Below are positions 32,412-64,000 of a stretch of DNA of 64,000 nt, piece after piece; within the stretch, counting starts at the first letter, position 1; every line of letters begins with the position of its first letter. The notes beneath the pieces were generated by a model. The model did no database searches, had not been told where the DNA came from, and was given only the letters and a program-made list of their open reading frames with translations. Origin of the DNA: Candidatus Tenebribacter davisii (GTDB taxonomy: Bacteria; Cloacimonadota; Cloacimonadia; Cloacimonadales; TCS61); contig JAVCCH010000166.1 of the NCBI GenBank assembly GCA_030765535.1, forward strand, positions 1 through 64,000. The letters are read 5' to 3'. A program made the position numbers and the translations under genes.

Positions 32412-32537
32412 TTAATGGTATCTTTTAATTATCAATTTTTCTGTCAATAGTTGAATGTTTATCCATTATAGATAAAACCTTGTCAAAATCTATCTTAATT
32501 AATTTTTTGAAAAGTAGTTGTTAGAATGGAGTTGAAA

Positions 32538-35638: not shown

Positions 35639-38600
35639 ATGAAATTATTTATTACATTGATATTGTTATCATTTATCATATTTAGTACTGCAATTGATCT
35701 TGATTTTTCAGGAGATCAGATCATTATTTCAGGAGATTTTGATAAAATTGAATTTACTGAAAAATTAACACAGAATATCACATTTACACAATTAAATCTT
35801 AGAAACTGCAGACCAACCGGAAAAATCGGTGAACCTGAATTACCGATTTTCTCACAACTTATCGAACTACCAAACACTGGAAATTATAAACTAGATAATA
35901 TCTCATATAATGAAGAAATTATTGAACTTGGAAATTCAGTTTTGCCTTGCGGTCTGCTTGATGATCATGATATTAATTTATCTGAATATCAAAGTGATAA
36001 ATGGATCCCTGAAGAGATAGTTACAATAAGTGATCCAAATATTATGGGTGCGTATCGATTCACACAAATTGCTGTATCACCCATACAATATAATCCAGTC
36101 CAAAATAAATTAAAGATTCTAAAAGACATTGATATTAATTTATCTTTAGATACCAATATATTAAAAAATCCAAAATTGAAAGAAAATAAGATCAATTCAT
36201 TTTCAAGCTTATCCGCAACAATAATTCCAGGCAGCAGACCCAGGATTTCAGACCAGAAAGGGCAATATCTTTTTATTATACAAGATGATACAGCACCTAT
36301 GTTAGAGCCACTTCTTCGCTGGAAGGAAAAACTTGGTTATACAACCAGAGTTGCAACTTTATCAGAAACAGGATCTGATTCCGGCGCTATTAAAAACTTC
36401 ATTCAAAATGCCTATGATAATTGGGAAACTCCTCCAGAATATGTTGTTTTAGTAGGCGATGTTGATGGTCCTATTTCTGTCCCTTCATTTTATGTTGAAG
36501 GCTATTTAACTCCCTGGGTTGTAAGTGATCACAAATATTCAATCCTCGAAGGTGAGGATTATTTCCCTGATGTGCTTGTTGGACGCTTATCTGTACGTTC
36601 ACAATTGCAGTTAAATACAATCATCAGCAAAATCATAAACTATGAAAGTAATCCGTTTATTGAAAATAACTGGCAGAAAAAAGCACTAATGATGGCTTAT
36701 GTCGATACCTGGTCGGAGTTCTATTCCGCTAGAGAAACAGTCATGGAAGTTCGCACTAAATTACTGGATTTTGAATTTACGGTTGTAGATACATTTATCT
36801 CACCCTACCAAAGTGGAATATCAAATTTAAAAAATATGATAAATGATGGTTACACTTTCTTGAATTATCGTGGTTTTGGAGGTCCCAGTTATTGGTCGGG
36901 TCATTATGGTGCAATGTTTGATATCAATGCAATTGGAAGTTTAAATAATGGTTTTAAGTTGCCAATGGTAACAAGCATTGTTTGCGGTGGAGGAGATTTT
37001 GGCAGCACAAATTACCCTACCTGTTTTGGAGAAACTTGGCTTACTGCAGGTTCACCCTCTAATCCAAAAGGAGCAATTGGCTTTATCGGACCAAGTGAAC
37101 ACGATACAAAAACTCCTTTTAATAACACAAATGATATGGGAATCTACCAGGGAATTACACAAGAGGGAGTAACCAGATGCGGTGAAATGATGCTGCGTGG
37201 TAAGATGGAACTTTATAATAACTATCCAAATTGTCATAATTGGGGAAATGCACTGAATTCAGATCAATTCTATTTTTTTGTTTACAATCTCTTAGGAGAT
37301 CCAGGTCTGCAGATCCTTACTGACACTCCTAAAGATTTTGATATATATATTCCTGATGAAATTCCTTCCGGTTCTAACTTCCTGGAAATTCAAATCGAAC
37401 TAAATGATGAGGATAGATCAGGTTTTACAATTGCAATTACTAATTCTGACAGTTTAATAACAACAGGTATCACCGATGTTTCGGGAATTGCAGCTATTCC
37501 AATTGATCTTACAGCAGGTGCTTATGAAGTTACAGCTTCAAAATATCTGTTTATCCCAGTAACATACGTATTATCGGTTGTAGAAGCAGAAATTGTACGG
37601 GTTGATGAATATAGTTGTTCTGGAATAATTCCGGGTGAGGCTGTAAGTATTATCGTCAGTATCCATAATTCCAGTAATACCCAAGCTAATAACTTGGAAA
37701 TTGAGCTATCAACAGAAGAAGATTTTATTGAAATTGTTACTGGTTCTTCGGCCATCGCATCTCTTGATGCAAATGAATACACAACCTGTAATTTTGAAAT
37801 TGAATTAGATCATTCCTGGCAAGATGGAATTAATGGTGGTCTCTTCTTAAATATTTCTTCTGATCTAGGCGAAAATGATTTCTTTATGCCCATAGAAATT
37901 ATATCTCCACAATTTACAATTTCAGATTTCATAATTGATGAACCTAATGGAAACTTGCTGCAGAATTCAAATTCTACTTTCAATCTGGAAATTCTAAATA
38001 GTGGGAACTTTGATGCTGACGAAACTATAATTGAGATGATCGCTATGTCAGATAATTTTGAAGTCATTAATGCCGAAACAATTTGTCCAACAATTCAAAC
38101 TGGACAAACTGGACTAATTGAATCATTTTTTGAGATCGCAATAGATGACGCGATCTCCGGTGAATTAGCCAAATTTAAATTTATAATTACTAATAGCGGA
38201 AACGTATTGCAGGAAATTACTTATTCCTATCCAATTGGTGAAATATCGGAGGAAAGTCCTACTTTTTGTGATCAGGATTATATTGCAATAGAATCATCTG
38301 ACATCGGTAACTTCACTGCCCCAATTTATGATTGGATAGAGATCAATCCTTCTGCCGGCGGACAAGGCAGCATTATTCAAGGTGGAAGTGTTAATGGCTC
38401 TGACGGTTTTACCAAAACAATAGATCTGCCTTTTGATTTTCAATATTTTGGAATGATTTATGATGAGATTTCTGTTTGTTCTAATGGTTGGATTTCAATG
38501 GGAGATACTGACCGTGTGTTTTTCAGGAATAAAAATATTCCTTCAGGAGTAGGTGCAAAAGCCATGATCGCACCTTTCTGGGATAATCTAATTAATGGTT

Positions 38601-39244
38601 CTGTTTATTCCTATTATGATGATTCTCAAAATATTTTTATCATAGAATGGTCAAACTGCAGGAACTATCACAGCTATTCTTATGAGACTTTCCAGGTTGT
38701 TTTCTATGATCTGATTTACTATCCATCAATAAACGGCAATGGTGATATCCTATTCCAATATAACCAAGTACAAAATAATGATAGTTCCGATAATTATGCA
38801 ACAATTGGTATAGAAAACGAAACACAAACAAATGGATTACTAATAACTTTTGCTAATATTTATGCCCCAACAGCCCATGAACTAGAATCAGAAACTGCAA
38901 TTTTATTCACAGCAAATGGTGATTCACAGGTTAATGTTGATCAAGAACTTACTATGAACATTCCTACTCTTTATCAGAATTATCCAAATCCCTTTAATCC
39001 AACAACAACGATATCATTTTCATTAACTTCTCAAAATTCTGAAAAAGTAGAATTAACAGTTTATAATCTAAAAGGGCAGAAAGTGAAACAACTTATTAGC
39101 AATCAACTACCAGTTGGTCAGTATTCTATTGTTTGGAACGGTACAGATTTGAATGATCAACCTGTATCTTCAGGAGTATATTTCTATAAATTGGCAGCTG
39201 ATGGTAAAACAATAGCCACTAGAAAATGTTTATTATTAAAATAA
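35639..39244 (+). CDS. Gingipain-like (peptidase C25) secreted protein with T9SS-type C-terminal domain
   Basis: YLFIIQDDTAPMLEPLLRWKEKLGYTTRVATL..., YVVLVGDVDG, DYFPDVLVGRLSV, FLNYRGFGGPSYW, TSIVCGGGDFGSTNYPTCFGETWL; NYPNPFNPTTTISFSL C-terminus. Confidence 0.9.
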   Translation: MKLFITLILLSFIIFSTAIDLDFSGDQIIISGDFDKIEFTEKLTQNITFTQLNLRNCRPTGKIGEPELPIFSQLIELPNTGNYKLDNISYNEEIIELGNSVLPCGLLDDHDINLSEYQSDKWIPEEIVTISDPNIMGAYRFTQIAVSPIQYNPVQNKLKILKDIDINLSLDTNILKNPKLKENKINSFSSLSATIIPGSRPRISDQKGQYLFIIQDDTAPMLEPLLRWKEKLGYTTRVATLSETGSDSGAIKNFIQNAYDNWETPPEYVVLVGDVDGPISVPSFYVEGYLTPWVVSDHKYSILEGEDYFPDVLVGRLSVRSQLQLNTIISKIINYESNPFIENNWQKKALMMAYVDTWSEFYSARETVMEVRTKLLDFEFTVVDTFISPYQSGISNLKNMINDGYTFLNYRGFGGPSYWSGHYGAMFDINAIGSLNNGFKLPMVTSIVCGGGDFGSTNYPTCFGETWLTAGSPSNPKGAIGFIGPSEHDTKTPFNNTNDMGIYQGITQEGVTRCGEMMLRGKMELYNNYPNCHNWGNALNSDQFYFFVYNLLGDPGLQILTDTPKDFDIYIPDEIPSGSNFLEIQIELNDEDRSGFTIAITNSDSLITTGITDVSGIAAIPIDLTAGAYEVTASKYLFIPVTYVLSVVEAEIVRVDEYSCSGIIPGEAVSIIVSIHNSSNTQANNLEIELSTEEDFIEIVTGSSAIASLDANEYTTCNFEIELDHSWQDGINGGLFLNISSDLGENDFFMPIEIISPQFTISDFIIDEPNGNLLQNSNSTFNLEILNSGNFDADETIIEMIAMSDNFEVINAETICPTIQTGQTGLIESFFEIAIDDAISGELAKFKFIITNSGNVLQEITYSYPIGEISEESPTFCDQDYIAIESSDIGNFTAPIYDWIEINPSAGGQGSIIQGGSVNGSDGFTKTIDLPFDFQYFGMIYDEISVCSNGWISMGDTDRVFFRNKNIPSGVGAKAMIAPFWDNLINGSVYSYYDDSQNIFIIEWSNCRNYHSYSYETFQVVFYDLIYYPSINGNGDILFQYNQVQNNDSSDNYATIGIENETQTNGLLITFANIYAPTAHELESETAILFTANGDSQVNVDQELTMNIPTLYQNYPNPFNPTTTISFSLTSQNSEKVELTVYNLKGQKVKQLISNQLPVGQYSIVWNGTDLNDQPVSSGVYFYKLAADGKTIATRKCLLLK

Positions 39245-39260
39245 TTTGCGGGGTGTTTTT

Positions 39261-42200
39261 TTGAAGAAGATTATACTTATACTTAGTTTATTGATAATAT
39301 TTTTGCAACTTGTTGGATTGGAATTTTCAGAAATTGGTAACTCATTTCAGGTCAGCGGAAGTTTTGAAATTGAACAGATCAAAACTATTCAATCTAAAGA
39401 TAAAACTTATAACAGTATCATTATTTCTGAATGTAAAAGTAGTATGGTCTCAAATTATTTTGAACTACCAATATATTCAAAATTAGTTTCTCTCCCAAGT
39501 ACTGGAAATTATAAGTGTTCTCAGCTTGAATATGATTATGATGAAATTGTGCTTTCCAATAAAATTGCACATGTAAATGATTCTGAACAGGAACTTTTTA
39601 CTCTCAATAAATGGATCCCAGAGAATATTGTTTCCATTGGAAAACCAGTAATAATGCGTGGAAACAGATTTTCTCAAATTTCTATTTCCCCTATTCAATA
39701 CAATCCAAAACTGAATGCGATTAGACTTATCAAAGACGTTCAACTAGAATTTGAAATTGATCAATCTGACTTCAGAAATCCTCTAACAAAAATTATTACA
39801 TCAACTTCATTCAATAAGATTGCATCGGAAAGGATTCTCGGTGCGAAGAACATTACACGTTCAACCGGAGGAAAATATCTTTTTATTGCACCAAGTAGTG
39901 TTGAGAACATTTTACAACCACTTCTTCGCTGGAAGGAAAAGCTTGGTTTTAAAGCAAAATTAGCTTTTCTTGAAGATATTGGTAATACAGCTGAAGATGT
40001 AAAAGCATATCTACAAAATGCCTATGATAACTGGGAGTTCCCACCGGAATTTGTTGTTTTGGTTGGAGACGTAACAGGTGCAATTCAATGTCCTGCTTTT
40101 TATGTGGAAGGATCCTGGATGCCTTGGAATGTAAGTGATCATAATTATACATTACTTGATGGAGAGGATTATTTCCCTGACATTTTTATCGGAAGACTGT
40201 CTGTTCAAAGTCAAATGGAATTAAGGACTATTGTTTCAAAAATAAAAAACTATGAACGGAATCCATTTATGGAGATCCCCTGGCAAAAACGTGCTTTAAT
40301 GGTTGGACTTGTCGAAGCATGGAATGGGTACTCCCAACGTGAAACTTTGATGGGAATCCGAAACAAACTTCTGGATTTTGAATATGCTGTAGTGGATACA
40401 TTTATAAATCCGTGGCAGCAAGGACAAACCATGCTGGCAAACTCTATAAGTGAAGGTGAATCATTTATCTGTTATCGTGGAGCTGGATCTCCTTCCTATT
40501 GGAGTGGTTCCCCGGGTGTTATGTTCACAAGTGATAACATTGAACTATTGACGAATGGTTTCATGCTGCCAATGGTTACCAGTATGACATGCGCCGGTGG
40601 TGATTTTGCTAGTGAGCAATACTCAACCTGCTTTGGTGAAAAATGGCTTGTAAGTGGAAGTCCAGCAGTTCCTAAGGGCGCAATCGGATTCATCGGGCCA
40701 AGTGAATATGATACAAAAACCTGGTTCAATAATGCAAATGCGATGGGTATTTATCAGGGAGTTACCCAGGAAGGATTATTCCGTTGCGGTGAAATACTGC
40801 TGCGAGGTAAGATGGAACTTTATATTAATTACCCGCAAAGTCATGCCTGGGGTAATGCCTCAAATTCAGATCAGTTCTATTTTTATGTTTATAATCTATT
40901 GGGTGATCCCGGATTACAAATCCTTACTGATATTCCAAAAGAATTGGAACTCAACTTTACTGCATCTATTCCCTCTTCTGCTAATTTTATTGAAGCGCAA
41001 ATTGATATTGAGGAAGACGATCTTTCAGGATTCACAATTGCGATAACTTCTGAAGATAGCCTAATAACAACAGGAATCACAAATGCCAGCGGAATTGCTG
41101 ATATACCTCTAGATCTCCCTGCTGGAAACTATGAGATTACGGCTTCTAAATATTGTTATATCCCCAAGACAAGTGAGCTTGAAGTAAATTCAGATATAGA
41201 TATTATCTTGGAAAATTATTCGTTTCCAAATCAATTAATATCCGGGCAAAACGGTTCTTTAGAATTTACAATTTCAAATCCTGGAACGTCTAATATTGAA
41301 GATATTACAATAACACCAATCTGTGACAATGAGCATATTTCTTTCATCTCTGAACCAATTTTACTGGATATCCTTGAAGTCGGTCAAAATTATTCTGATC
41401 TATTTGAAATTGAAGTCTCTGAAAGTTGGGTTAACGGAGATGATATCCAGATATTTTTAAATATCACTTCTAATAATGAAGATTATGTATTTTTGGTCTC
41501 CACAATTATTTCATCACCTGAACTCGTTATTTCTGAATTCTTGGTTCAAAATTCAACTCAGTGTTTATTGCAAAATCAAACAGTAGATGTTATTATCGAA
41601 CTTCTAAATTGCAGTGAGTATGAAACAGGAGTTTTTCAAACTGAATTAACCTGTATAAATGAAAATGCTATCGTTGAAGATGCTGTATTCAATTTCAGCA
41701 GCATACTGCAAAATGAAACAGGATCCGGTAATTTTACCATAACACCAGAAAACGTGAACTCAGGTGAAATTGCCCAATTTAATTTAATAATAACTGGGAA
41801 TGATAATGCGCTTCAGAGCATCAACTTTAATTTCCCGATCGGGATTATTGATTCTACCAGTATCACATTTTGTGAAAATGGTTATTTTGCAATTGAATCG
41901 AGTGATATTGGTAACTTTAGTGCCCCTGAATATGATTGGATAGAGATCGATCCAACCCATGGTGGAGACGGCTCGTTACTTGATCCCGATCATACAACAA
42001 TGAACGGATTTGCAAAATTTATTCCTCTTCCATTCCAAATTAATTATTTCGGAATCTTTTATGATAATATCTCAATTTGTTCCAATGGATATATTTCCAT
42101 GGAAACAACTCCTCTCATTTTTCAAAGAAATCGCAATATCCCTTCTGGAGTTGGAACCTCCGGTATGATCGCTCCTTTCTGGGATAATCTTTATGATGGA

Positions 42201-44135
42201 CGAATTTATGTGAAATATGATGAAGAGAATAATTATTTTATAATTGAATGGTCAGATTTTAAAAATGAATTTGATGAAAGCAATGAGATATTCCAGCTTA
42301 TTCTTTATGATCCTGAATTTTATTACACAAATGATGTAAATAAATTAATGAAGTTCCAATATAAAGAAGTTAATAATACCGATCAGGATGAGAATTATGC
42401 AACTGTGGGCTTAGAAAATTACCAACAAACTGAAGGGTTATTATTAACTTTTTCAAATATCTATCCAAATACTGTTCATGAAATACAAGATGAAACAGCA
42501 ATATTATTTAGCAATGACATTGAGAATAATTTCCCATATATAAGTGTTGCTCCTGAAAGTTTCAGTTTTTCTGTACCTGCTGATTCTACTTTTACTGCTG
42601 ATCTTACTCTTTCTAATCTAGAAGGGACATCCGATGTTTCCTATAATATCTCGTTTGCACATTTTGCCAGAATACCAGATAATGAAATCAATAACTTCAA
42701 TGAAGATTTTTCTCGAAATATTGAAAATGATTATATTTTTAATATGACAAATTCCTATATACCGATCGAACCAATGAGTTTTCTTTTCTATCTTATTCAC
42801 AATAATATTGATGGAGAAGGAATTCATGGAGTTACCATTGATTTCCCACCCGGGTTTTATGTTAATAGCGCCAATGATATTGATGACCTGAGCTATAATG
42901 GTGAAACCGGTTATGGCGTTGAAGTTAGCTGGGGTTTTAACTCAGGTAACAGCATTTCACCAACAACTGCAACTCCTATTAATGTTAATGTAACAATAGA
43001 TGAAGATCAAATTTCTCCAGTAAATATTGACTGGTATTTAGAAGGTGATGGATCGGGCACTGATCCTCACCAGATAAGTGGTACATTTATTGTGAATCCG
43101 ACAACAGACAATTACTTTTGGATATCATATCCAAACGGTGGAGAGACTGTTGTTCCCTCAATTCAGGATACACTTAAATGGGATAAATACGGCGAAGCAG
43201 AATATGTGAAGATCATGCTGAGTAGAGACAATGCACAAAGCTGGCTTGTAATTGAAGATATGGCAGAGAATTCAGGTAGTTATCCATTTGTATTTGATGG
43301 GCCACTAAGTGATGAATGCTGGTTAAAAGTAGTAACTCTGGATGAAAGCAGTTATGATATCTCCGATAGTACCTTCAGTATCTCGGCATTTAATATTACA
43401 TATCCTGAAGAAGGCTCAATTTTATCTTACGGAGAACCTGTTACCTTAATCTGGGAAGATACGGGGAATTATGATAATGTAATGATCGAGATATCTACAA
43501 ATAATGGTTATACCTGGGAGACTATCGCTGAATCTACAGAAAATACAGGTTCTTTCAGTTTTAATGTTCCCGGACCACCTTCCGAATATACTCTAATTAG
43601 AATTAGTAATATAAACTGTAGTATTCAAAATACTTCTCGGCTTTTTACAATAGTAGATTCACCTGTCAACTGGCTCTCAGTTGAAAATACTACTGGTACC
43701 ATACCGGCTGGAGAGATCGAAAATAATTTGATAACTATATCCACCAATGATCTAGCTCCAGCAACCTATGTTGCTATCATAAAAATGGTTTCCGATATCG
43801 GGCAGATCTTGAATATCCCCATAACTTTAGAAGTTTATTCTACAACTCCTCCAGTAGTACGATATGTTCTTAAACAGAATTATCCGAATCCTTTCAATCC
43901 ATTCACTAAAATTGATTATGACGTTCCAGAAACAGGTAAAATTACAATTAAGGTTTATAACATTCGAGGACAGTATATAAAAACCTTGATCAATGAAAAA
44001 AAGGATAGAGGAAGTTATTATACATACTGGGATGGAACAGATGATAAAAATAATAAAGTCAGTTCAGGGATCTATTTTTATCAGCTTAATTCTGTTAGAT
44101 CTACTAAAACAAAAAAGATGATCCTTGTGAAATAA
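39261..44135 (+). CDS. Second gingipain-like (C25) paralog with extra C-terminal domains and T9SS-type CTD (TTG start 39261 preferred)
   Basis: Same architecture as the upstream gene; FICYRGAGSPSYW, TSMTCAGGDFASEQYSTCFGEKWL; extra segments ISVAPESFSFSVPADSTF... and BACON-like NWLSVENTTGTIPAGE; NYPNPFNPFTKIDYDV; GGGGTG precedes TTG 39261 followed by a signal peptide. Confidence 0.9.
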   Translation: MKKIILILSLLIIFLQLVGLEFSEIGNSFQVSGSFEIEQIKTIQSKDKTYNSIIISECKSSMVSNYFELPIYSKLVSLPSTGNYKCSQLEYDYDEIVLSNKIAHVNDSEQELFTLNKWIPENIVSIGKPVIMRGNRFSQISISPIQYNPKLNAIRLIKDVQLEFEIDQSDFRNPLTKIITSTSFNKIASERILGAKNITRSTGGKYLFIAPSSVENILQPLLRWKEKLGFKAKLAFLEDIGNTAEDVKAYLQNAYDNWEFPPEFVVLVGDVTGAIQCPAFYVEGSWMPWNVSDHNYTLLDGEDYFPDIFIGRLSVQSQMELRTIVSKIKNYERNPFMEIPWQKRALMVGLVEAWNGYSQRETLMGIRNKLLDFEYAVVDTFINPWQQGQTMLANSISEGESFICYRGAGSPSYWSGSPGVMFTSDNIELLTNGFMLPMVTSMTCAGGDFASEQYSTCFGEKWLVSGSPAVPKGAIGFIGPSEYDTKTWFNNANAMGIYQGVTQEGLFRCGEILLRGKMELYINYPQSHAWGNASNSDQFYFYVYNLLGDPGLQILTDIPKELELNFTASIPSSANFIEAQIDIEEDDLSGFTIAITSEDSLITTGITNASGIADIPLDLPAGNYEITASKYCYIPKTSELEVNSDIDIILENYSFPNQLISGQNGSLEFTISNPGTSNIEDITITPICDNEHISFISEPILLDILEVGQNYSDLFEIEVSESWVNGDDIQIFLNITSNNEDYVFLVSTIISSPELVISEFLVQNSTQCLLQNQTVDVIIELLNCSEYETGVFQTELTCINENAIVEDAVFNFSSILQNETGSGNFTITPENVNSGEIAQFNLIITGNDNALQSINFNFPIGIIDSTSITFCENGYFAIESSDIGNFSAPEYDWIEIDPTHGGDGSLLDPDHTTMNGFAKFIPLPFQINYFGIFYDNISICSNGYISMETTPLIFQRNRNIPSGVGTSGMIAPFWDNLYDGRIYVKYDEENNYFIIEWSDFKNEFDESNEIFQLILYDPEFYYTNDVNKLMKFQYKEVNNTDQDENYATVGLENYQQTEGLLLTFSNIYPNTVHEIQDETAILFSNDIENNFPYISVAPESFSFSVPADSTFTADLTLSNLEGTSDVSYNISFAHFARIPDNEINNFNEDFSRNIENDYIFNMTNSYIPIEPMSFLFYLIHNNIDGEGIHGVTIDFPPGFYVNSANDIDDLSYNGETGYGVEVSWGFNSGNSISPTTATPINVNVTIDEDQISPVNIDWYLEGDGSGTDPHQISGTFIVNPTTDNYFWISYPNGGETVVPSIQDTLKWDKYGEAEYVKIMLSRDNAQSWLVIEDMAENSGSYPFVFDGPLSDECWLKVVTLDESSYDISDSTFSISAFNITYPEEGSILSYGEPVTLIWEDTGNYDNVMIEISTNNGYTWETIAESTENTGSFSFNVPGPPSEYTLIRISNINCSIQNTSRLFTIVDSPVNWLSVENTTGTIPAGEIENNLITISTNDLAPATYVAIIKMVSDIGQILNIPITLEVYSTTPPVVRYVLKQNYPNPFNPFTKIDYDVPETGKITIKVYNIRGQYIKTLINEKKDRGSYYTYWDGTDDKNNKVSSGIYFYQLNSVRSTKTKKMILVK

Positions 44136-54497: not shown

Positions 54498-55403
54498 TTA
54501 TTCGTCTTTATTTTTATAGAATCTTGTAGTCGGATAAGCAAGCTCAATATCAGTGTGCCTGGCAAATTCCAATAAAATATCTTCCCAGATAGCTTCAGTG
54601 TAACCTCTCCGCATACGTGTTTCGCATAAATGACGAATAGTAAGCCTGACACCCTGATCTATAACACTTGTATATACTATCGGTGTTAATTTTTTATAAT
54701 AGATCATATATTTTTTAGCAGCTCTTTTAATTTGAGTTTCCATGCTCTTGGATATATTAGTACCTTTATTATCAGCAATTTTCATTAATATTTTTTTTGC
54801 TTTCTGCCAATTGCTTTCAAATGTGACTACAACTTCAATTTCATTCCAGAGATATTTAAATCCTTTATCATAATTTGCCAGATCTTGCGAGAATATTTTC
54901 CCATTTGGTATATGAATTATTCTGCCTGTACTTTGATCAGCATGAACCCAGTTCCCGATCTCTAATAGAGTAAATTCAAAAAAACTCTGATCAATTACAT
55001 CACCAGCACACTCACCAATTTGAATCCTATCCCCCACAATGAAAGGTCGACTTGAGATAATGAACAGCCAACCGGCAAGATTTGTCAGAACATCTTTCAG
55101 GGCAATGGCTATACCTGCTGAAAGTAAACCTAAATAGGTTACTAGTGATTGTGCTCCCCGAAACCAGATCCTGCCCACAAGAATAACTAAAATAATTAAT
55201 ATCGTTGAGTTAATTATTTTACGCCAATGATACTGAGTTTTCACATCATTGATATTTTTATTTATCACTTTAACAATTATTTTTCTTATCAGCCAAATAA
55301 TAATTATTAGAACAATTGATTCTAGAAGCTTTAATACGAGCGGGGAATTCAGATATGGTATACTTGTAATAAATGAATTGATATGATCAAAAAACTCTTT
55401 CAT
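54498..55403 (-). CDS. MscS-family mechanosensitive channel
   Basis: LLSAGIAIALKDVLTNLAGWLFIISSRPFIVGDRIQIGECAGDVIDQSFFEFTLLE, IHIPNGKIFSQDLANY. Confidence 0.92.
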   Translation of the reverse strand: MKEFFDHINSFITSIPYLNSPLVLKLLESIVLIIIIWLIRKIIVKVINKNINDVKTQYHWRKIINSTILIILVILVGRIWFRGAQSLVTYLGLLSAGIAIALKDVLTNLAGWLFIISSRPFIVGDRIQIGECAGDVIDQSFFEFTLLEIGNWVHADQSTGRIIHIPNGKIFSQDLANYDKGFKYLWNEIEVVVTFESNWQKAKKILMKIADNKGTNISKSMETQIKRAAKKYMIYYKKLTPIVYTSVIDQGVRLTIRHLCETRMRRGYTEAIWEDILLEFARHTDIELAYPTTRFYKNKDE

Positions 55404-56062
55404 TAATAATTCTTGAAGTTCTTTATCAACCGGATCTCAACTCTTCTGTTTTTTTTGCGGTTAACTGGATTATTATTATGAACAATCGGCTTATATTCAC
55501 CATATCCCATTGCCTGCATTTGTTCAGGTGGGAAAAAATTATTATCCATAAAAAATCTTACTACATTCAATGCTCTAGATGATGAAAGCTCCCAATTTGA
55601 AGCATAAGTACCGCTTAATATCGGCAGATTATCAGTATGACCTTCCACCCTGATTTGCCATCCAGGCTCACCATTTATTCTGTTTTGAATATTTCTGGCA
55701 ACTTGAGCTAATGTTCGTAAAGATTCCCATTTCAAAAGGGCTTCACCTGTATTAAATAATACTTCTCCCGGTATGGTAATTACCTGTTCATTTACATCTA
55801 AAAGTGAGTCTAATTTTGCCAGCTCCATCAACCGTTCATTCTGTTCAACGATCTGTTTATTTTGCTCGATCAGCATTTTGTTCTTCTGGTAATCTGTAGT
55901 AATATAAAAGAAAACAAAGAAGACTAAGAGTAGAGTCATCAGATCAGCATATGGGATCATCACATCTAAAAGATTTTGATTCTCATTATTTTCGTCGCTA
56001 AGATCCTGGATCCTACTTTGCTTTACAATATTTTTTTCAGCTAGTATGTCTTCTGTTATCAA
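55403..56062 (-). CDS. MotB-like stator protein (TM plus OmpA/peptidoglycan-binding domain)
   Basis: MIPYADLMTLLLVFFVFFY (stator TM with conserved Asp), VEGHTDNLPI...NWELSSSRALNVVRFF...GYGEYKPI..NRRVEIRL. Confidence 0.92.
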   Translation of the reverse strand: MITEDILAEKNIVKQSRIQDLSDENNENQNLLDVMIPYADLMTLLLVFFVFFYITTDYQKNKMLIEQNKQIVEQNERLMELAKLDSLLDVNEQVITIPGEVLFNTGEALLKWESLRTLAQVARNIQNRINGEPGWQIRVEGHTDNLPILSGTYASNWELSSSRALNVVRFFMDNNFFPPEQMQAMGYGEYKPIVHNNNPVNRKKNRRVEIRLIKNFKNY

Positions 56063-56796
56063 TGCAAATATCCTAATAATTTTTCTTTGATCTTATGAGT
56101 ATTTTCATTATTTTTTATAGAAATTACACCTGCAATAATTATTTCCCTGACTCTTGTATCTGTATTATTCTTATCTCTTATTTTTCCTGAAAGCGGTTTA
56201 AAGATCAGAGCTGCCAGCACAAGACCGTAAAATGTTGTAACGAGGGCTAATCCCATTGCGGCAGGGATTGCAGCAGGATCTTTTACACGATATAACATAG
56301 CTATAAGACCTATTACCGTTCCCATCATCCCGAACATAGGTGCAAAACTACCCGCTATCCTGAATACTCTTTCAGCAATGATATTTTTTTCAGTACAAGA
56401 TCTGCTATCGCGAGATAGTACCTCTTCTATATGCTTGATATCTTCTCCATCGGCGACGAGGTTCATACCCTTTGCCAAAAATGGGATCTCCTTTACAGAT
56501 TCATTCTCGATCATACTTTTAAAACTTGTTCCCTTAGATTGTTTGCTGATATCTAAGATCATTCCGATTAAATCTATTTCGCGATATTGCTTATCTTTGA
56601 ATATCCCAATTAATGATTTCCAGGCATTCTTTAATGCTTGCGGAGAAAAATAGATTATGACAGCAGATATTGTGCCGCCCAGAGTAATTGCTAAAGCTGC
56701 CCAATTGAGATATAATGAAGGTTCCTGTTTAAAAAAAATGACTGATATGATTATTCCAAAACCTAATAAAAATCCAATTATTACTGATGTTCTCAT
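56059..56796 (-). CDS. MotA/TolQ/ExbB-type proton channel (MotA-like)
   Basis: NWAALAITLGGTISAVII, AGSFAPMFGMMGTVIGLIAML, ALVTTFYGLVLAALIFKPLSGKI (conserved channel prolines). Confidence 0.93.
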   Translation of the reverse strand: MRTSVIIGFLLGFGIIISVIFFKQEPSLYLNWAALAITLGGTISAVIIYFSPQALKNAWKSLIGIFKDKQYREIDLIGMILDISKQSKGTSFKSMIENESVKEIPFLAKGMNLVADGEDIKHIEEVLSRDSRSCTEKNIIAERVFRIAGSFAPMFGMMGTVIGLIAMLYRVKDPAAIPAAMGLALVTTFYGLVLAALIFKPLSGKIRDKNNTDTRVREIIIAGVISIKNNENTHKIKEKLLGYLH

Positions 56797-56798
56797 AA

Positions 56799-58205
56799 TT
56801 ATTCCTTTATAAAATTAAGAATCTTTCTAATATTAATGAGCATTTGCTGTTTGATATTTTCCTCTTCATCTTGATCAATTTCTGCAAGATAATCCATATC
56901 TTCATGTAAAATAGAAGATGCTCTTGGAGTTAGGTTATTAAAGAATTTTCTTTGTATATCGCTATCAACACTCTTAATAAATTCTACTAATAAATCATGA
57001 TCTGTTGATAGAACTATATTCTCAATTTCCTGTTCATCTAATTTTAATATATCTGAGAACAGGAAAATTCTATTTCTTATCTCCTGCCCAGCCTGTTCAT
57101 CAAATTGATTAATTTGATCCATGTATTTCTTAGTCCTGTCCAGATCAAGCTGATTAAGTACATTAATTAGTGCTTCTTTACTATTAGTATTTAGTTTTTC
57201 ATCATCAATCATTTGTTCAAATTTCTTTTTTAAACTGTTTCTCAGTTCTAAAATATCTTTTTTCGATTTATTGATATTTTTTACCATCGATTTCATGATC
57301 TCTTCTGTTTCACCAATATATGAATTTAAAAATTTACTTACAAATTTTGAGCTCAAATTAGTGAGTATATAAGCAATATTACTTGCATCTTCATTCTCAA
57401 GTAATTTTGATAGACTTGCTATGGAAAGATCTTCCAGGAAATTAAAATCAAATATATCAATCTCTTTTTTATCATCGACAAGTCTAATCGGAATAGGCTT
57501 ATTCGACACAGTTAGATTGGATATCCCAATACCGGTATTACTGATTTTCTGTGTTTCCAATCCTCCTTTTATTTGTAATGCTTTCTCAAATCCTTTTACA
57601 TTGATACTTTGCATAGAAGTAGTTAATTTTGTGAATCCTGAACGGAGGATAAAAACAGAAACCAGAATTATTATTATTAGAACCAAACCCATATATAAGA
57701 AAAAGAAATTATTTACTTCTTTTTTTTCTTGTTCCTCTGCAACACCATTGCGGAAATCCAGAATACTTTTTATTTGCAACATATCACCTTTTTCTGGATT
57801 AATGTTCATCCAAAGAGCAACATTCTGTTTAATAAATTGCAATATCTCAGGGCTGACATCTTCCTTCAGGTAAATGGTTATCTCTTTTTTTGCTACTATA
57901 GTTGGATATGTTTCCTGATCATCAATTACAGTAGGCATTACAGATTTTGATTTTGCAATTGGAAGCCCGGGTAAACTCTTTTCCTTATCCAACATTGAGC
58001 CGTAAACCTGTAATCTGCTGGCTGGATAATCAAGTGTAAGATTTGCAATTACTATTGTTTCTCCAGCAATAGGTAATAACATTCTTTCAATCCATTCAGC
58101 CAATTCACGTTCAGATTGGATTTCCTTAACAGTTTCAATGTCAAAATCTTGTGAAAAGAGCTGTACAGCAAGCAATAAAATTAAAATAATTAACAGTTTC
58201 TTCAT
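56799..58205 (-). CDS. Membrane-anchored FliF/FliG-like fusion protein
   Basis: Signal peptide; FliF-like periplasmic segment ELAEWIERMLLPIAGETIVIANLTLDYP...ITIYLKEDVSPEILQFIKQNVALWMNINPEKGDMLQI; TM FFFLYMGLVLIIIILVSVFIL; FliG-like C-terminus ILKLDEQEIENIVLSTDHDLLVEFIKSVDSDIQRKFFNNLTPRASSILHEDMDYLAEIDQDEEENIKQQMLINIRKI. Confidence 0.8.
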   Translation of the reverse strand: MKKLLIILILLLAVQLFSQDFDIETVKEIQSERELAEWIERMLLPIAGETIVIANLTLDYPASRLQVYGSMLDKEKSLPGLPIAKSKSVMPTVIDDQETYPTIVAKKEITIYLKEDVSPEILQFIKQNVALWMNINPEKGDMLQIKSILDFRNGVAEEQEKKEVNNFFFLYMGLVLIIIILVSVFILRSGFTKLTTSMQSINVKGFEKALQIKGGLETQKISNTGIGISNLTVSNKPIPIRLVDDKKEIDIFDFNFLEDLSIASLSKLLENEDASNIAYILTNLSSKFVSKFLNSYIGETEEIMKSMVKNINKSKKDILELRNSLKKKFEQMIDDEKLNTNSKEALINVLNQLDLDRTKKYMDQINQFDEQAGQEIRNRIFLFSDILKLDEQEIENIVLSTDHDLLVEFIKSVDSDIQRKFFNNLTPRASSILHEDMDYLAEIDQDEEENIKQQMLINIRKILNFIKE

Positions 58206-58214
58206 ATAATTTCC

Positions 58215-59666
58215 TTATTGTTCATTGGTAAGTAGTCGCATCATTTTCCTTATTTCCACATTATTGGGATCCATTCTTTCTGCTTTTTTTAATTGATACA
58301 TTGCTTCTTCTATATCGCCAAGACGATAATAGATTGAGGCAAGCCTGATATATGATAACGACAGATTCGGTGCAAGAGAGATAGCTTGATTACATTCATC
58401 TATCGCTTTATGATAATCTTCCGAATAATAGAATTCCAGAGCAGCTATCAAATGTACAGTAGCCTTATTTATTTTCTGGATATCCGACTTTCTAATTTTT
58501 GCTGTTTCATCTTGAACTTTTTTCTGAACTTCTCTTTCATCCATTACGCGTTCAACTATTCTTATTGTGTCATGTATTGTTCTGGTTTTAATAACGGTAT
58601 CTACTACTACTTTTTCTACATATACTGTATCAATGCCTGCATCAGGATCAATCCCAAATTGAGATGGGTATAAGGAAGCAAGGTTCTTTTCTGTATCTCT
58701 TGTTTTTACAAAATTAATTTTTATGCCAAAGAAATGCTCTCCAAAGTCAGATTCCAAACTATTCCCCGTTGAAAAAGTTCCTCCATCTTTTGCAGCACCA
58801 AAGGGATATTGGAAAGCATAATCCATACTGATCTGCAGGAAGCTGAAATCTAATTTTTCATTTTCATTACCAGAGTTTGGATTAAACCACTTTTTAGAAT
58901 AGAACTGCACGCCAAATCCGCCAGTTACGTCATTATTATTTAATCCAAGTCTAAGTTGCAGATTCTTTGCCAATATATATTCAGTACCAACTCCAAAACC
59001 AAGCTCATTACTATTCTGATATTTACGGAATAAAAGATCTCCTGAGATGTTAAATCTTTTCCATGTTACTCCAGTACCTAACCCTAATCTCATGGGAAGT
59101 TTATCTTTATTATTGCTGTCAATAGCCATATCTGCCTGCAGTATATTACCAGCCAGAATTCCAATGTTTGCATATTGATTTATTCTATAGGAAAATCCCA
59201 AGTCTAGATCAAATGCATTTTTACTCTCACCTATTTCAGAGAAATTTGTATAATGATCATAAAGACTTACTCCTGCAGAAAGTTTATCAGTAAGCTTCTC
59301 CGGGAAAATCCTGGCTCCATAATGCAAACCGAATCTCCCCTCCGTATAAGAATCCGAATTAAATGATCCACCTGTAAGTGCAAACGCACCTGGAACTTTA
59401 TTTAACGGGAATGAAAAATAAATAAAATTCTGGGCAATATCATCATTATCCAATTGTATCATATACGGCCTTGAATCTGTGATCAACTGAAAAGATGGAT
59501 AGTTTGCCAAACCTGATGGATTCCAAACGGCTGACGAGATATCTTTGGAAGATGCTATCCCTGTCTCTCCTAAAGCTGCATTTCTAACACCGCCATTTTC
59601 AAAATCATAGCCAAAACATACTATAGGGATTATTATTAATGCAATTACAAATAACTTATATTTCAT
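58215..59666 (-). CDS. PorV/PorQ-like outer-membrane beta-barrel protein with C-terminal TPR domain
   Basis: GGVRNAALGETGIASSKDISSAVWNPSGLANYPSFQL; beta-barrel strands; coiled linker DTVIKTRTIHDTIRIVERVMDEREVQKKV; TPR HLIAALEFYYSEDYHKAIDECNQAISLAPNLSLSYIRLASIYYRLGDIEEAMYQLKKAERMDPNN. Confidence 0.8.
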   Translation of the reverse strand: MKYKLFVIALIIIPIVCFGYDFENGGVRNAALGETGIASSKDISSAVWNPSGLANYPSFQLITDSRPYMIQLDNDDIAQNFIYFSFPLNKVPGAFALTGGSFNSDSYTEGRFGLHYGARIFPEKLTDKLSAGVSLYDHYTNFSEIGESKNAFDLDLGFSYRINQYANIGILAGNILQADMAIDSNNKDKLPMRLGLGTGVTWKRFNISGDLLFRKYQNSNELGFGVGTEYILAKNLQLRLGLNNNDVTGGFGVQFYSKKWFNPNSGNENEKLDFSFLQISMDYAFQYPFGAAKDGGTFSTGNSLESDFGEHFFGIKINFVKTRDTEKNLASLYPSQFGIDPDAGIDTVYVEKVVVDTVIKTRTIHDTIRIVERVMDEREVQKKVQDETAKIRKSDIQKINKATVHLIAALEFYYSEDYHKAIDECNQAISLAPNLSLSYIRLASIYYRLGDIEEAMYQLKKAERMDPNNVEIRKMMRLLTNEQ

Positions 59667-59670
59667 TATC

Positions 59671-62541
59671 TTACCTTGCTATAATTATGCTGCCTTGATA
59701 AATTCTATTATTAATTTTAATTTGATAGATATAAAATCCACCACTTACTAAATTATTTTGTGTATCTGTTTTATCCCAGATGGCTTGTTTGTTCTCACCA
59801 TACTGTCCGATATTTAATTTTTTTATCAATTTCCCACTTCTATTTAATATTTTTCCTGATATCTTGTTTTGTTCCACCAAACTGTAAATAGTGATTGTAC
59901 AAATTTCATCCTGCTTAACTGTATGTGGTTCAATACAGATCTTTTCGTCTGGATTCTCGGGTGTAACATTAACTACAAGTTCTTCTGTTGCAATGGCACG
60001 TGTTACATTATCATCAAGAATAAGGGATAAAACTTCAGATCCTGTCCAATTTGCAGGTGCTGAGAAGGTTACTTCAAAACCATTGATCTCAATTATGATA
60101 TTGTTATTTCCGGTTATTGTTAAAGTTAATTCTTCCAATGTCTGTTCCGGATCGATAATTACCGGTGAGAAATCAAACACCTTATCTGTATTCTCAGTAA
60201 AAGTTATCACTCCGGAGAATTCTTCCATATCAAATGATGGTGCATCATTAACACTATTTACAATAATATCAATATTATCAGTTGCGAGGACATTGCCAAT
60301 TTCATCTTTAATAATAAAACTTACATTTTCCGTACCGAACCAGTTAGTATTTGGTTCAATTGTAACCATATAGACATTAATAGATATAGTTAAATTGTTA
60401 CTTACAGTTGCTTCCAGGATCGGCTCATCGTTTTCAGGATCAATAATAAAAGGACTGAAATTTTCTATTATCAAGCCATCTTCTTCACAAACCAGATTAT
60501 CTGGAAGTAACAGGACAGGTGGCTGATTTTCCTCACAAACAAAAGAAAAAGCAGCATCAACTAAAACATTGGGAACAACAGCCAGATCGGCTGCTGAGAT
60601 ATTAACAGTAACCATTTCACTATTATTAAATGGTTGTGGAGGTTGATAAGAAATTATATAACCTGCACTTCCCATGATGGATATTTCTTCAAGTTCAAAA
60701 TCTTCAATGACTATATCGTTTATGCTCATCTCGATCGAAGTAGAATCTACATCATTTTCATTATCTAATATATAACAACTTATTTGTGTTGATACAGAAA
60801 CATTAGTCGCTCCATTTGCAGGATCTGACTGCCAGATAAAAGGAGGATTTACATCTACTAGAGCACACTCAAAGGAATAGCCGAAAGTTCCCATCTCATT
60901 TGCTGGTATAACAAGGTCTGAGGCATTAATTGAAACATAAACCGTATCACCTGAATTGAAGTTTTCTACAGGATCAATTATGATCAAATAATCATTTACT
61001 GCACCACTATAAAATAAATTGTTTAATGCTATTGAATATTCAATAAATTGGACATTTACAACGACGCTATTGATATCTACACCATAACCATCATCAACTA
61101 GATGAAATGTTACATTGGTATCTACAGGATTATCTGTGGAATATGCCTGCGGATCGAGTTCTGTAACATAGGGTGAATCTGCATCACTTATGCATTGAAA
61201 AGTATAGGAAAATCCACTGAGTTGGTTAGCAGGTATTGAAAGATCCGCTACATCTATCTCTACTGATACCAATTGCGAAAAATCGAAATTTTCAGTGGGA
61301 TTTATACTTATCGAATAATTTGCCGAATTACCACTATACGATAAGTTGCCAATAGACGCTGAATATTGCTCACTATCTATTTCAACGATTAATGTATTAA
61401 TATCAACACCCAGATCATCATCATAAACATGGAAATTTATATTAGTATCTATTGGAACGTTTTGTTGACCTGGAAGAGGATCATAGTCCCCTGTATAGGG
61501 AGGGTTATTGTCCAGTTCACACTGGAAATTATAAAAATAAGTTGCCATTACATTGGCAGGTTGTGAAAGATCCGCAGCATCAATCTGAACTGTTACTACT
61601 TCACCATAATCAAAATTATTTGCGAGATCAATTGTTACTGTATATCCATTTGGAATCGTCTGATAAGTGAATGATGTATTCAGGGATGTATACTGGAATC
61701 CTTGAATATCAACCACAACAGAAATTATATCTACACCCTCAATATTATCGTAAATATTAAAAATTATATTTGTATCAATAGGAACATTATTTTCACCTGG
61801 TACAGGATCCCACTCACCAGTATATGGCGGTTGAATATCATCAATTATCTGAAAAGAGTATTCAAAAGATGACATTGATATCCCATTCAAATCAGAGGCA
61901 TCAATTATTACATTAACAACTTCTGCCAGATCAAAATTAACAGGTACATTAATAACTATATGGTAGGCATTTGCATTCCCAGTGTAATAAAAAGCTCCAT
62001 TATTGTGGGTATAAGTAACACCTTGTATCTCTACTATAACTGAAGTTAAATTAACGCCAATCCCACTGTCATAAACGACAAATTCAATATCTGTCTCCTG
62101 GGGAACATTAACAGATCCTTCTCCCGGATCTAATCCCCCAATATAAGGTGGCTGCAAATCCTCAACAGTTTGGAATGAATATGAATAAGTAGGCATTACA
62201 TTGGCTGGTTCCTCAAGATCAGATGCGTCTACCTGTAAATTAATTGTTTCATCAAACTGAAAATCCATGGGCGGATTTACTGTTATAATATAGCTGAAGG
62301 GTGTCCCACTATAGAAAAATGAAGCATCTGTACTAGTATAGATCACACCGTTAATATTTACTTGCACAGTACTAATGTCAACTCCATCTGCTCCATCGAT
62401 CACATAAAAAGTAATATCAGAATCTACCGGGATTCCTATCGCCCCTGCTGTTGGATACAATGGTGTTACATCAGGTGGGATAGCATCCGCATATAAAAAA
62501 CAACCAAATATTAGCATTAGAATAATTAGAACATTTTTCAT
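59671..62541 (-). CDS. Secreted/surface protein: six tandem Ig-like repeats, two cadherin-like repeats, FlgD-like/T9SS-type C-terminal domain
   Basis: Signal peptide; repeats PPYxGxxDPxPGxxNVPIDTNIxFxVYD..GVDI..V.V.I...; C-term ISGKILNRSGKLIKKLNIGQYGENKQAIWDKTDTQNNLVSGGFYIYQIKINNRIYQGSIIIAR. Confidence 0.88.
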   Translation of the reverse strand: MKNVLIILMLIFGCFLYADAIPPDVTPLYPTAGAIGIPVDSDITFYVIDGADGVDISTVQVNINGVIYTSTDASFFYSGTPFSYIITVNPPMDFQFDETINLQVDASDLEEPANVMPTYSYSFQTVEDLQPPYIGGLDPGEGSVNVPQETDIEFVVYDSGIGVNLTSVIVEIQGVTYTHNNGAFYYTGNANAYHIVINVPVNFDLAEVVNVIIDASDLNGISMSSFEYSFQIIDDIQPPYTGEWDPVPGENNVPIDTNIIFNIYDNIEGVDIISVVVDIQGFQYTSLNTSFTYQTIPNGYTVTIDLANNFDYGEVVTVQIDAADLSQPANVMATYFYNFQCELDNNPPYTGDYDPLPGQQNVPIDTNINFHVYDDDLGVDINTLIVEIDSEQYSASIGNLSYSGNSANYSISINPTENFDFSQLVSVEIDVADLSIPANQLSGFSYTFQCISDADSPYVTELDPQAYSTDNPVDTNVTFHLVDDGYGVDINSVVVNVQFIEYSIALNNLFYSGAVNDYLIIIDPVENFNSGDTVYVSINASDLVIPANEMGTFGYSFECALVDVNPPFIWQSDPANGATNVSVSTQISCYILDNENDVDSTSIEMSINDIVIEDFELEEISIMGSAGYIISYQPPQPFNNSEMVTVNISAADLAVVPNVLVDAAFSFVCEENQPPVLLLPDNLVCEEDGLIIENFSPFIIDPENDEPILEATVSNNLTISINVYMVTIEPNTNWFGTENVSFIIKDEIGNVLATDNIDIIVNSVNDAPSFDMEEFSGVITFTENTDKVFDFSPVIIDPEQTLEELTLTITGNNNIIIEINGFEVTFSAPANWTGSEVLSLILDDNVTRAIATEELVVNVTPENPDEKICIEPHTVKQDEICTITIYSLVEQNKISGKILNRSGKLIKKLNIGQYGENKQAIWDKTDTQNNLVSGGFYIYQIKINNRIYQGSIIIAR
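60526..62478 (-). repeat. Six tandem protein repeats of about 109 aa (Ig-like), diverged at DNA level
   Basis: Repeat starts near residues 22, 131, 238, 347, 456 and 566 of the 956-aa protein (PPxxxxxxP...NVP...DT...D..GVDI...). Confidence 0.88.
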
Positions 62542-62620: not shown

Positions 62621-63436
62621 TTATTTTCCGCTGAGTGATTTGATCTCAGTTATATCATTATAAACTGCAAGAATTTCCGCTGTAATGGCAATTGCTATTT
62701 CCTGCGTTGTAGTTTTACCAATATTCAATCCAATCGGTGCATGCACTTTATCTATTAATGCACCTGGATATCTTTTTTCTTTAATTCTATTGATGGCATC
62801 AGCAGCTTTAATTTTTGAACCGATCATTCCTATATATTTAAGTTGAACATTTTTCTCACATAACTTATCTAAAATATCAAAATCATATGTATGACCATGT
62901 GTAAAGATCACAATTGAATCATTTTCCTCAGGATTAAATTTCTTTAAGAACTCAATATAATCTACTGCATAGACCTCTTTTGCAAGCGGAATTCTGTCTT
63001 TATTGCCATACTCTTCTCTGTTATCTAGCACAATACAATAGAGTCCAATAGAATTAAAGATGGGAACAATACTTCGACAAAGGTGACCTGCCCCGAAAAT
63101 ATATACTTTTTTTGTAGGAGGAAAGTATTCCAAATAAACTTTTGCATTACCACCGCACATCATTCCTATCCCTTCTGATGTCTCGGTAAGTTCAAATTCA
63201 AGGAAAGCATTTTCTTTTGTTATAAAGATCTCTTCACATTTATCCAAGACCATTCTTTCTAATTTACCACCTCCAACAGTTCCCTCTGAAGTTTTATCTT
63301 CATACGCAATAAGCTTAAATCCAGAACGGCCTGGTGTTTTTTCCACCCCTTCTACTATAGTTGCTAACACAAATGTTATTCCTTGTTTCTGATTATCTAC
63401 TACTTTTTGTAATATATCAAATACTGCTGTTTCCAT
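62621..63436 (-). CDS. XdhC/CoxI family protein
   Basis: GTVGGGKLERMV, MMCGGNAKVYLEYF, VYIFGAGHLCRSIVPI, THGHTYDFDILDKL, YIGMIGSKIKAADA, HAPIGLNIGKTTTQEIAIAITAEI. Confidence 0.93.
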   Translation of the reverse strand: METAVFDILQKVVDNQKQGITFVLATIVEGVEKTPGRSGFKLIAYEDKTSEGTVGGGKLERMVLDKCEEIFITKENAFLEFELTETSEGIGMMCGGNAKVYLEYFPPTKKVYIFGAGHLCRSIVPIFNSIGLYCIVLDNREEYGNKDRIPLAKEVYAVDYIEFLKKFNPEENDSIVIFTHGHTYDFDILDKLCEKNVQLKYIGMIGSKIKAADAINRIKEKRYPGALIDKVHAPIGLNIGKTTTQEIAIAITAEILAVYNDITEIKSLSGK

Positions 63437-63442
63437 AATTAT

Positions 63443-64000
63443 TTATCCTATATTTTTTTTATCGAATTCTTTTTTTGTATTTATGTTATGCAGAATAGAT
63501 TCATCATCAATTTCAATAAATTTTCTGCCTTCATTATGATCATTTATTATTTTATTCAACTTGGAATCAAGCGGATAGGCGAGTACAATATTTTTAAATT
63601 CAGGAGCAAAAATAAGTGGATGTCCACCCCGCTTGATTTTACCGGAAACAAAAGACGGTTGCAATATCAGAGAATCATATTTATATTCTGAGACCAACTT
63701 TTTATATACCTCTGCTGAAATAAAGGGCTGATCGATAAGTTGAAAGATCACAGCATTATTCCCGGTAACATTAGCAAATCCTTTCTGCACAGATGAGAAC
63801 ATACCTTTTTTATGCAATTCATTGTGAACAAGAATAATTTTTTCAGAAGTTCCAAAATGTTTTTGTAGAGCCATTTTTACATTTTCCAAATTATCTCCAA
63901 GTACTATGATCACACGTTCGGAGAGTGGTAATATCTTATTTAATATAAAAACAATCGCAGGAACACCTTTAATGTTCAGTAAGGCTTTGTCACTTCCCAT
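63443..64000 (-). CDS. MobA/MocA-like NTP transferase, N-terminus truncated at window edge
   Basis: MGSDKALLNIKGVPAIVFILNK (internal to the usual LAAGxSxRMGxxKxLL), FQLIDQPFI, RGGHPLIFAPEF; adjacent to xdhC. Confidence 0.85.
   Translation of the reverse strand: MGSDKALLNIKGVPAIVFILNKILPLSERVIIVLGDNLENVKMALQKHFGTSEKIILVHNELHKKGMFSSVQKGFANVTGNNAVIFQLIDQPFISAEVYKKLVSEYKYDSLILQPSFVSGKIKRGGHPLIFAPEFKNIVLAYPLDSKLNKIINDHNEGRKFIEIDDESILHNINTKKEFDKKNIG

Follow-up and report, generated by a model that had tools for sequence, protein, structure and literature searches.

Introduction

FliG rotors are commonly regarded as flagellar. The locus described here raises the question of what such a rotor may do when it is encoded with its stator, an outer-membrane (OM) barrel and a surface protein. 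A review names three known proton-driven biological rotary motors, which are Fo, the flagellum and the type IX secretion system (T9SS) (PMC9127263). In a 2025 survey, 11% of the non-motile species had rotor proteins, for which no explanation was given (PMC12199754). The window, meaning the whole 64-kb stretch of DNA that was analysed, comes from a Candidatus Cloacimonadota MAG that is 95% complete. The original prediction had read six of its genes as a possible minimal rotor and stator that would power surface-protein secretion or movement instead of a flagellum.

Results

Gene order and conservation of the cluster

All of the six genes were found as open reading frames on the minus strand, to which all coordinates below refer, with the predicted gaps of 4, 9, 2, -4 and -1 nt from the Ig-repeat gene to the MscS gene. 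The window gave no match when scanned for Rfam families and tRNAs. A promoter scan gave fewer hits than the shuffled expectation, and a terminator scan was near it. Two C25-peptidase proteins with sorting domains are also encoded in the window.

The distribution of the cluster was determined in 125 Candidatus Cloacimonadota genomes, 71 of them high-quality. The fusion was found in 24 of the 125, and the order Ig protein, PorV/TPR protein, fusion, MotA and MotB is repeated in at least 13 further genomes with fusion identities of 34-74%. Therefore, the linkage of the five core genes is not due to chance. Only in two genera, the nearest ones, does the MscS gene (54498..55403; MS_channel_2nd 1e-12) at the operon end adjoin the module, and it is thus accessory rather than core. 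Of the six-gene linkage originally proposed, five genes are accordingly conserved across the phylum and the sixth is merely local. Full-length PorV/TPR protein and fusion occur together in 21 genomes, each one alone in 3 and 3, and neither in 98, figures that are inflated by kinship among the genomes. All of the six genes are under purifying selection (dN/dS 0.05-0.11). The module itself is accessory, since a congener of the host that is 98% complete (G094) has none. A second, paralogous module type carries a separate TPR protein after MotB and has no PorV or Ig neighbours, which suggests that TPR is a recurring partner. In a contig scan of 85,462 species, 18/18 relatives were from Cloacimonadota; the single peptide pattern used misses some known members, and confinement to this phylum is therefore unproven. 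Viral contigs gave no relative, and a plasmid collection gave ordinary FliGs only, which matched the FliG part.

The FliF/FliG fusion

The fusion gene (56799..58205) encodes an N-terminal signal peptide, an RBM3-like domain (57756-58133), one TM helix (57606-57710), FliG_M (57210-57449) and FliG_C (56820-57116). The FliG part was recognised by Pfam (FliG_C 2.3e-18, FliG_M 9e-4) and NCBIfam (TIGR00207 FliG, 5.6e-23). The FliF part had no Pfam match, and a profile search against PDB sequences gave the FliF entries 9yh6 (E=0.0016) and 12dr (E=0.007). On sequence alone, the RBM3 identity is weak. Foldseek with the predicted structure (shallow alignment of 15 sequences, mean pLDDT 71) returned FliF S-ring/RBM3 entries from 5.5e-4 with a probability of 1.00, and the insert between RBM strands 1 and 2 resembles that of FliF/SpoIIIAG (compared with PMC4768692). 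As judged by sequence and model together, the protein is a single polypeptide consisting of the FliF ring-building motif RBM3, one TM helix and the middle and torque domains of FliG. The fusion that had been predicted is thus genuine by sequence, profile and fold evidence.

The stator-facing R281 and the acidic positions 288/289 are retained in 22/22 fusions. On the FliM side, the EHPQ motif and R160 are invariant in seven canonical FliGs of the phylum and gone from the fusions. The K264 position is mostly unconserved in fusions beyond the host genus, and E98 of MotA is unconserved in the module. Therefore, the torque interface is only partly preserved. The module FliG groups apart from the flagellar FliG of the phylum.

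MotA and MotB

Pfam domains bore out the assignment of MotA, MotB and MscS. MotA (56059..56796) is a flagellar (PomA/MotP-like) stator subunit (MotA_ExbB 1.1e-22; NCBIfam MotP 8e-45 versus ExbB 2e-4) that retains prolines 173 and 222. It has no second close MotA homologue in the host genome, which encodes three further MotA/ExbB-family proteins. In the tree, the module MotAs form one clade distinct from the flagellar MotA of the phylum (support 98/100). MotB (55403..56062, TTG start) carries MotB_plug (1.6e-7) and an OmpA peptidoglycan-binding domain (1e-17). Its proton-site Asp (residue 40, PYADLM, 55943-55945) is retained in 18/19 aligned module sequences, and in G056 Asn replaces it. The MotBs of G116 and G117 are without the OmpA domain; a LysM-like end of the latter was suspected by eye and dismissed after Pfam gave no match.

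The barrel, the Ig-repeat protein and type IX secretion

The PorV/TPR gene (58215..59666) encodes a PorV/FadL-type OM barrel (approximately residues 20-320), a flexible linker and a C-terminal TPR domain (approximately residues 393-482, 58221-58490). NCBIfam PorV_fam matched the barrel at 2.4e-14 (53.7 of 90 bits, under the curated cut-off), with TPR matches in addition. The best Foldseek match of the barrel was chain F of 8gl6, a T9SS substrate complex (1.9e-9), and the runners-up include FadL and chain F of 6h3i. The modelled fold places the protein among the PorV-type OM proteins of type IX secretion, in agreement with the PorV-like barrel that had been proposed.

The Ig-repeat (Big_5, 4.8e-15) secreted surface protein (59671..62541, 956 aa) ends in a divergent T9SS-type sorting domain of about 90 aa (59674-59940). 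Taken alone, it gave only non-significant Pfam values (FlgD_ig 0.046, CHU_C 0.057). Its G052 orthologue matched CHU_C above the cut-off (3.8e-6), and its G107 orthologue matched TIGR04131 just under the curated cut-off (8.2e-8). A module-specific profile of the C-terminal domain (CTD) scored 3e-39 and in each genome also matched dozens of CTD proteins more weakly, and the family is continuous with CTDs in 125/125 genomes. From these profiles, the C-terminus is assigned to the T9SS sorting-domain family; the T9SS-like end in the original prediction is clear in divergent orthologues and weak in the window protein by itself. The search for the T9SS core found SprA in the host (PF14349; TIGR04189 1e-154, above the cut-off), together with at least 41 CTD matches, and SprA was present in 71/71 high-quality genomes. 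GldM (TIGR03517) had no match in the 125 genomes, a search that was also silent in control genomes.

Flagellar genes

The lack of flagellar genes first noticed in the window has a parallel in the whole host genome, in which profile searches with FlhA and FliM/N as the flagellar markers found neither, and in which ordinary FliG is also missing. FlhA (PF00771), whose search was positive in control genomes, occurs in 12/125 genomes, and FliM/N (PF01052) in the same 12 only. Both are absent from 23/24 fusion genomes. G056 has flagellar genes with their own MotAB alongside the module.

Discussion

We lean towards reading the cluster as a non-flagellar rotor that MotAB would drive and that would be coupled, through the envelope, to an adhesin at the cell surface. 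The rotor-stator part of the original prediction is supported, in that a membrane-anchored FliF/FliG rotor protein with its own MotAB and PorV/T9SS-type partners is encoded in a genome without a flagellum. In the proposed machine, the RBM3 domains would oligomerise into an inner-membrane ring with a FliG ring below. Ion flow through peptidoglycan-anchored MotAB would push on FliG_C and turn the ring. With the FliM-binding motif gone and FliM/N missing, the module would work without a CheY-type switch. Torque would cross the periplasm and reach the PorV-type barrel, probably by way of the TPR domain, a coupling suggested by gene linkage and co-occurrence only. The barrel would hold the Ig-repeat adhesin, exported via SprA, and the adhesin may be dragged or rotated at the surface for gliding, attachment or pulling on the envelope. 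Movement of the adhesin, the other alternative of the original prediction, is an inference, as are coupling, rotation and function in general. More tentatively, with our judgement close to balanced but on the doubtful side, the module could represent a class of its own among proton-driven rotary machines, in which a FliF-RBM3/FliG ring without an export apparatus is turned by MotAB and drives an OM barrel and adhesin.

The motor could instead energise a type IX branch in place of GldL/GldM and move no adhesin. The operon does hold a PorV-type protein and a CTD-bearing cargo, SprA is in the genome, and the silence of the GldM search, shared by the controls, leaves room for this. However, SprA is found almost throughout the phylum, unlike the module. 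General T9SS export is therefore independent of the module, and the powering of surface-protein secretion in general is not supported. The three other MotA/ExbB-family proteins of the host also count against a secretion motor, which we regard as rather unlikely. A non-rotary use of MotAB and the FliG fusion, in which they would tether the envelope or sense force, to detect surfaces or act in OM-peptidoglycan tension and with MscS in some genera, is unlikely as well. The MscS of the nearest genera and the MotBs without OmpA domain or Asp would suit it, but MscS lies outside the core, and nearly all members retain the Asp of the proton site and the FliG charges that face the stator.

Decaying remnants of a lost flagellum would account for the homology of the parts in a phylum with flagellated members. 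This explanation was rejected as very improbable considering the purifying selection, the conserved order, the distinct fusion architecture and the separate MotA and FliG groups; moreover, one genome keeps the module beside flagellar genes with their own MotAB. Membership in a Zorya-like anti-phage system, whose ZorAB is MotAB-like, has a negligible chance and was also rejected. MotB matches ZorB models through the shared MotB/OmpA regions, but this is the only such match among the six proteins. ZorA models did not match MotA, there was no match to ZorC, ZorD or ZorE among the six, and a FliG rotor and PorV are foreign to Zorya.

Under the favoured reading, an adhesin-coupled rotor, the module offers a concrete and testable case: most torque residues are retained, the interface for the switch has disappeared, and an OM/adhesin pair is the output. 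If true, a flagellar motor ring and stator can act as a detachable engine, with a bearing on flagellar evolution and on the dealings of Cloacimonadota with surfaces. No account of the module was found in the open-access papers searched, in agreement with the initial failure to recognise a described system. The module looks like an undescribed rotary machine that moves or pulls on the cell surface.

Comparison with known systems

With the flagellar motor, the module shares a FliF RBM3-type domain, a TM helix, the M and C domains of FliG, and flagellar-type MotA/MotB with the Asp, the OmpA domain and the stator-facing FliG charges. In contrast, RBM1 and RBM2 of FliF, FliG_N, FliM/N and FlhA are missing. 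Full FliF has RBM1-RBM2-RBM3 and two TMs, whereas in the fusion a signal peptide is followed by only an RBM3-like domain and a single TM. The module has also lost the FliM-binding motif, and its genetic partners are instead an OM barrel and a surface protein. The gliding/T9SS motor of Bacteroidota (GldL/GldM, SprB adhesin; PMC8986121) likewise has a PMF-type motor pair, and the T9SS-type adhesin, the PorV-type OM partner and the SprA of the host are further likenesses. However, the motor of the module is MotAB with a FliG rotor rather than GldLM, and its OM partner has TPR repeats. The Chlamydiaceae also have a natural fusion of FliF-type and FliG-type parts in a non-flagellated bacterium. The chlamydial protein is without the SpoIIIAG-like (RBM3) domain, has a FliG_M-like part only and occurs with FlhA (PMC4768692), whereas the fusion described here retains RBM3 and the FliG_C torque domain and has its own MotAB and no FlhA. 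The AglRQS gliding motor of Myxococcus and Bdellovibrio is likewise a MotAB-family motor without a flagellum. AglRS belong to the generic stator group and are not known to have a FliG rotor. AglRS have been classed with non-flagellar stators (PMC12505986), whereas the module MotA is flagellar-type and accompanied by FliG.

Results

The six open reading frames of the minus-strand operon and their spacing, as first read from the sequence, were in exact agreement on re-check. Pfam and NCBIfam confirmed MscS, MotB, MotA, FliG_M/FliG_C, a PorV-family domain plus TPRs, and Big_5 repeats in the operon proteins. Pfam left the first half of the FliG protein unmatched; residues 253–461 of the whole protein could be aligned to solved FliG structures (1lkv, 1e-21). 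A profile of 20 full-length relatives was matched against the PDB. Its N-terminal region matched FliF (9yh6, 0.0016, profile 28–145), and a second FliF match was obtained with 12dr (0.007, profile 117–187). In a profile-profile comparison with the FliF proteins of flagellated Cloacimonadota, the alignment spanned the last RBM3 segment and the next TM helix (probability 63%, single-pair E 7e-5). A structure model of the fusion (mean pLDDT 71) runs helix-strand, disordered insert, strand-helix-strand, TM helix (166–200) and then the FliG domains. By Foldseek, the model matched FliG C-ring structures (1.3e-9) and FliF S-ring/RBM3 structures (8z5v, 5.5e-4; 6sd1, 2.6e-3; probability 1.00), and SpoIIIAG more weakly. 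An insert at this position, separating strands one and two, has been described as characteristic of FliF RBM3 and of SpoIIIAG (PMC4768692). From the profile, fold and insert evidence, the fusion protein is therefore FliF RBM3 and one TM helix joined to FliG M and C, and RBM1/2 and FliG_N are absent. Since the PDB titles among the Foldseek matches include ring structures of the RBM3 region (8ftf, 6sd1), a ring of fusion RBM3 domains is plausible.

The window belongs to contig C164 of a MAG of 3.0 Mb that is 95% complete. All named relatives are Candidatus Cloacimonadota, among them Candidatus Tenebribacter mawsonii. The fusion is present in 24 of the 125 genomes of the phylum. It is accessory, because it was not found in a 98% complete congener (G094). 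FlhA occurs in 12 of the 125 genomes and FliM/N in the same 12, the control genomes being matched for both; ordinary FliG is confined to FlhA-positive genomes. The original prediction of a motor without a flagellum agrees with the search of the 24 fusion genomes, 23 of which gave neither FlhA nor FliM/N. The only exception, G056, has FlhA as well as the module, and its flagellar MotAB shares a contig with FliM/N. Extra weak FliG_C-like matches, apart from canonical FliG, were seen in three flagellated genomes (L062:6814-7587 in G051, G059:C85 and G060:C6).

The expected linkage of the fusion with motAB and the PorV/TPR-Ig pair was borne out. As far as their contigs extend, at least 13 more genomes show the gene order Ig, PorV/TPR, fusion, MotA, MotB, and their fusion proteins share 34–74% identity with that of the window. 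In G052, Ig-PorV is divergent from fusion-MotA-MotB; in G107 the two parts are on separate contigs, and in G068 the order is fusion-MotA-MotB-Ig-PorV. MscS follows the module only in the two genera nearest the host, g1 and g7. PorV/TPR, counted as full-length matches including those judged to be cut by contig ends, and the fusion are both found in 21 genomes, one alone in 3 and 3, and neither in 98 (Fisher 1e-17, relatedness ignored). PorV/TPR stands without the fusion in G091 (contig ending inside the gene), G053 (short fragment) and G054 (72% complete bin). A paralogous second type (G078, G101, partial copies elsewhere; loci L049, L052, L053) combines a fusion of ~490–515 aa and MotA and MotB with a secreted TPR protein encoded by its own gene; PorV and Ig genes are absent. 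Upstream of the operon on the same strand (62621–64000) are two genes, one encoding 271 aa and one cut by the window edge, which we take to be XdhC-like and MobA-like; a pair of similar sizes likewise precedes the module in several relatives.

In the MotA tree, the module sequences are split from the others by a branch with 98/100 support, and their stem is long. Fusion FliG is apart from canonical FliG, including that of E. coli, at 100/100, and the branches are long. The dN/dS among related operons is 0.05–0.11 for all six genes.

The FliG residues of 7 canonical Cloacimonadota proteins and 22 fusions were compared. The EHPQ motif of FliG binds FliM. This motif and R160 are invariant in the canonical FliGs but gone in the fusions, whereas both groups share an invariant R281 and, throughout, acidic residues at 288/289; K264 varies among fusions. 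In E. coli, MotA R90 contacts FliG D288-D289 and MotA E98 contacts FliG R281 (PMC12505986). In module MotA, position 90 is still basic and both prolines are present, but E98 is not conserved; the flagellar MotA of the phylum mostly keeps the ARREG..ALE motif. Thus, judged from these residue patterns, the FliM side is gone, and the stator side is retained in part. The proton-site Asp of MotB is kept in 18 of 19 aligned module sequences, and is Asn in G056 (L046:216-797). The OmpA peptidoglycan-binding domain is missing from module MotB of G116 (L040:1338-1877) and G117 (L044:9579-10001). By eye the G117 C-terminus is LysM-like, with no Pfam match.

The closest PDB match to the PorV/TPR model (mean pLDDT 63) was chain F of 8gl6, a substrate-bound T9SS complex (1.9e-9), followed by FadL and 6h3i chain F. 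The CTD of the Ig protein belongs to a strong family (below 1e-21) almost entirely limited to module genomes; weaker matches grade out into all 125 genomes, with dozens in most. CHU_C/type B motifs are kept in divergent Ig-protein orthologues.

Discussion

The motor identity of the module is well supported. Judging from architecture, linkage and co-occurrence, ion flow would turn the RBM3/FliG ring, and the torque may be passed on to the PorV/TPR-Ig pair. A broader role, in which the module energises the T9SS in general, was also considered. The host possesses the translocon SprA (G000:C60, L105:8076-14138), flanked by what are presumably a pantothenate kinase-like gene on one side and MlaD/permease/ATPase-like genes on the other. 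Three further window proteins carry T9SS sorting domains: two tandem C25-peptidase (gingipain/PorU family) proteins (35639–44135) and an adjoining PGA_cap protein (32526–35543). SprA is in every high-quality genome and the module is not. General T9SS energisation is therefore disfavoured, and with it the general form of the proposal that the module powers surface-protein secretion. GldM, of the Bacteroidota T9SS motor, had no match in the 125 genomes, in a search that gave none in the control genomes either. The parts of the module are each already known, and on present evidence their joint function is putative.
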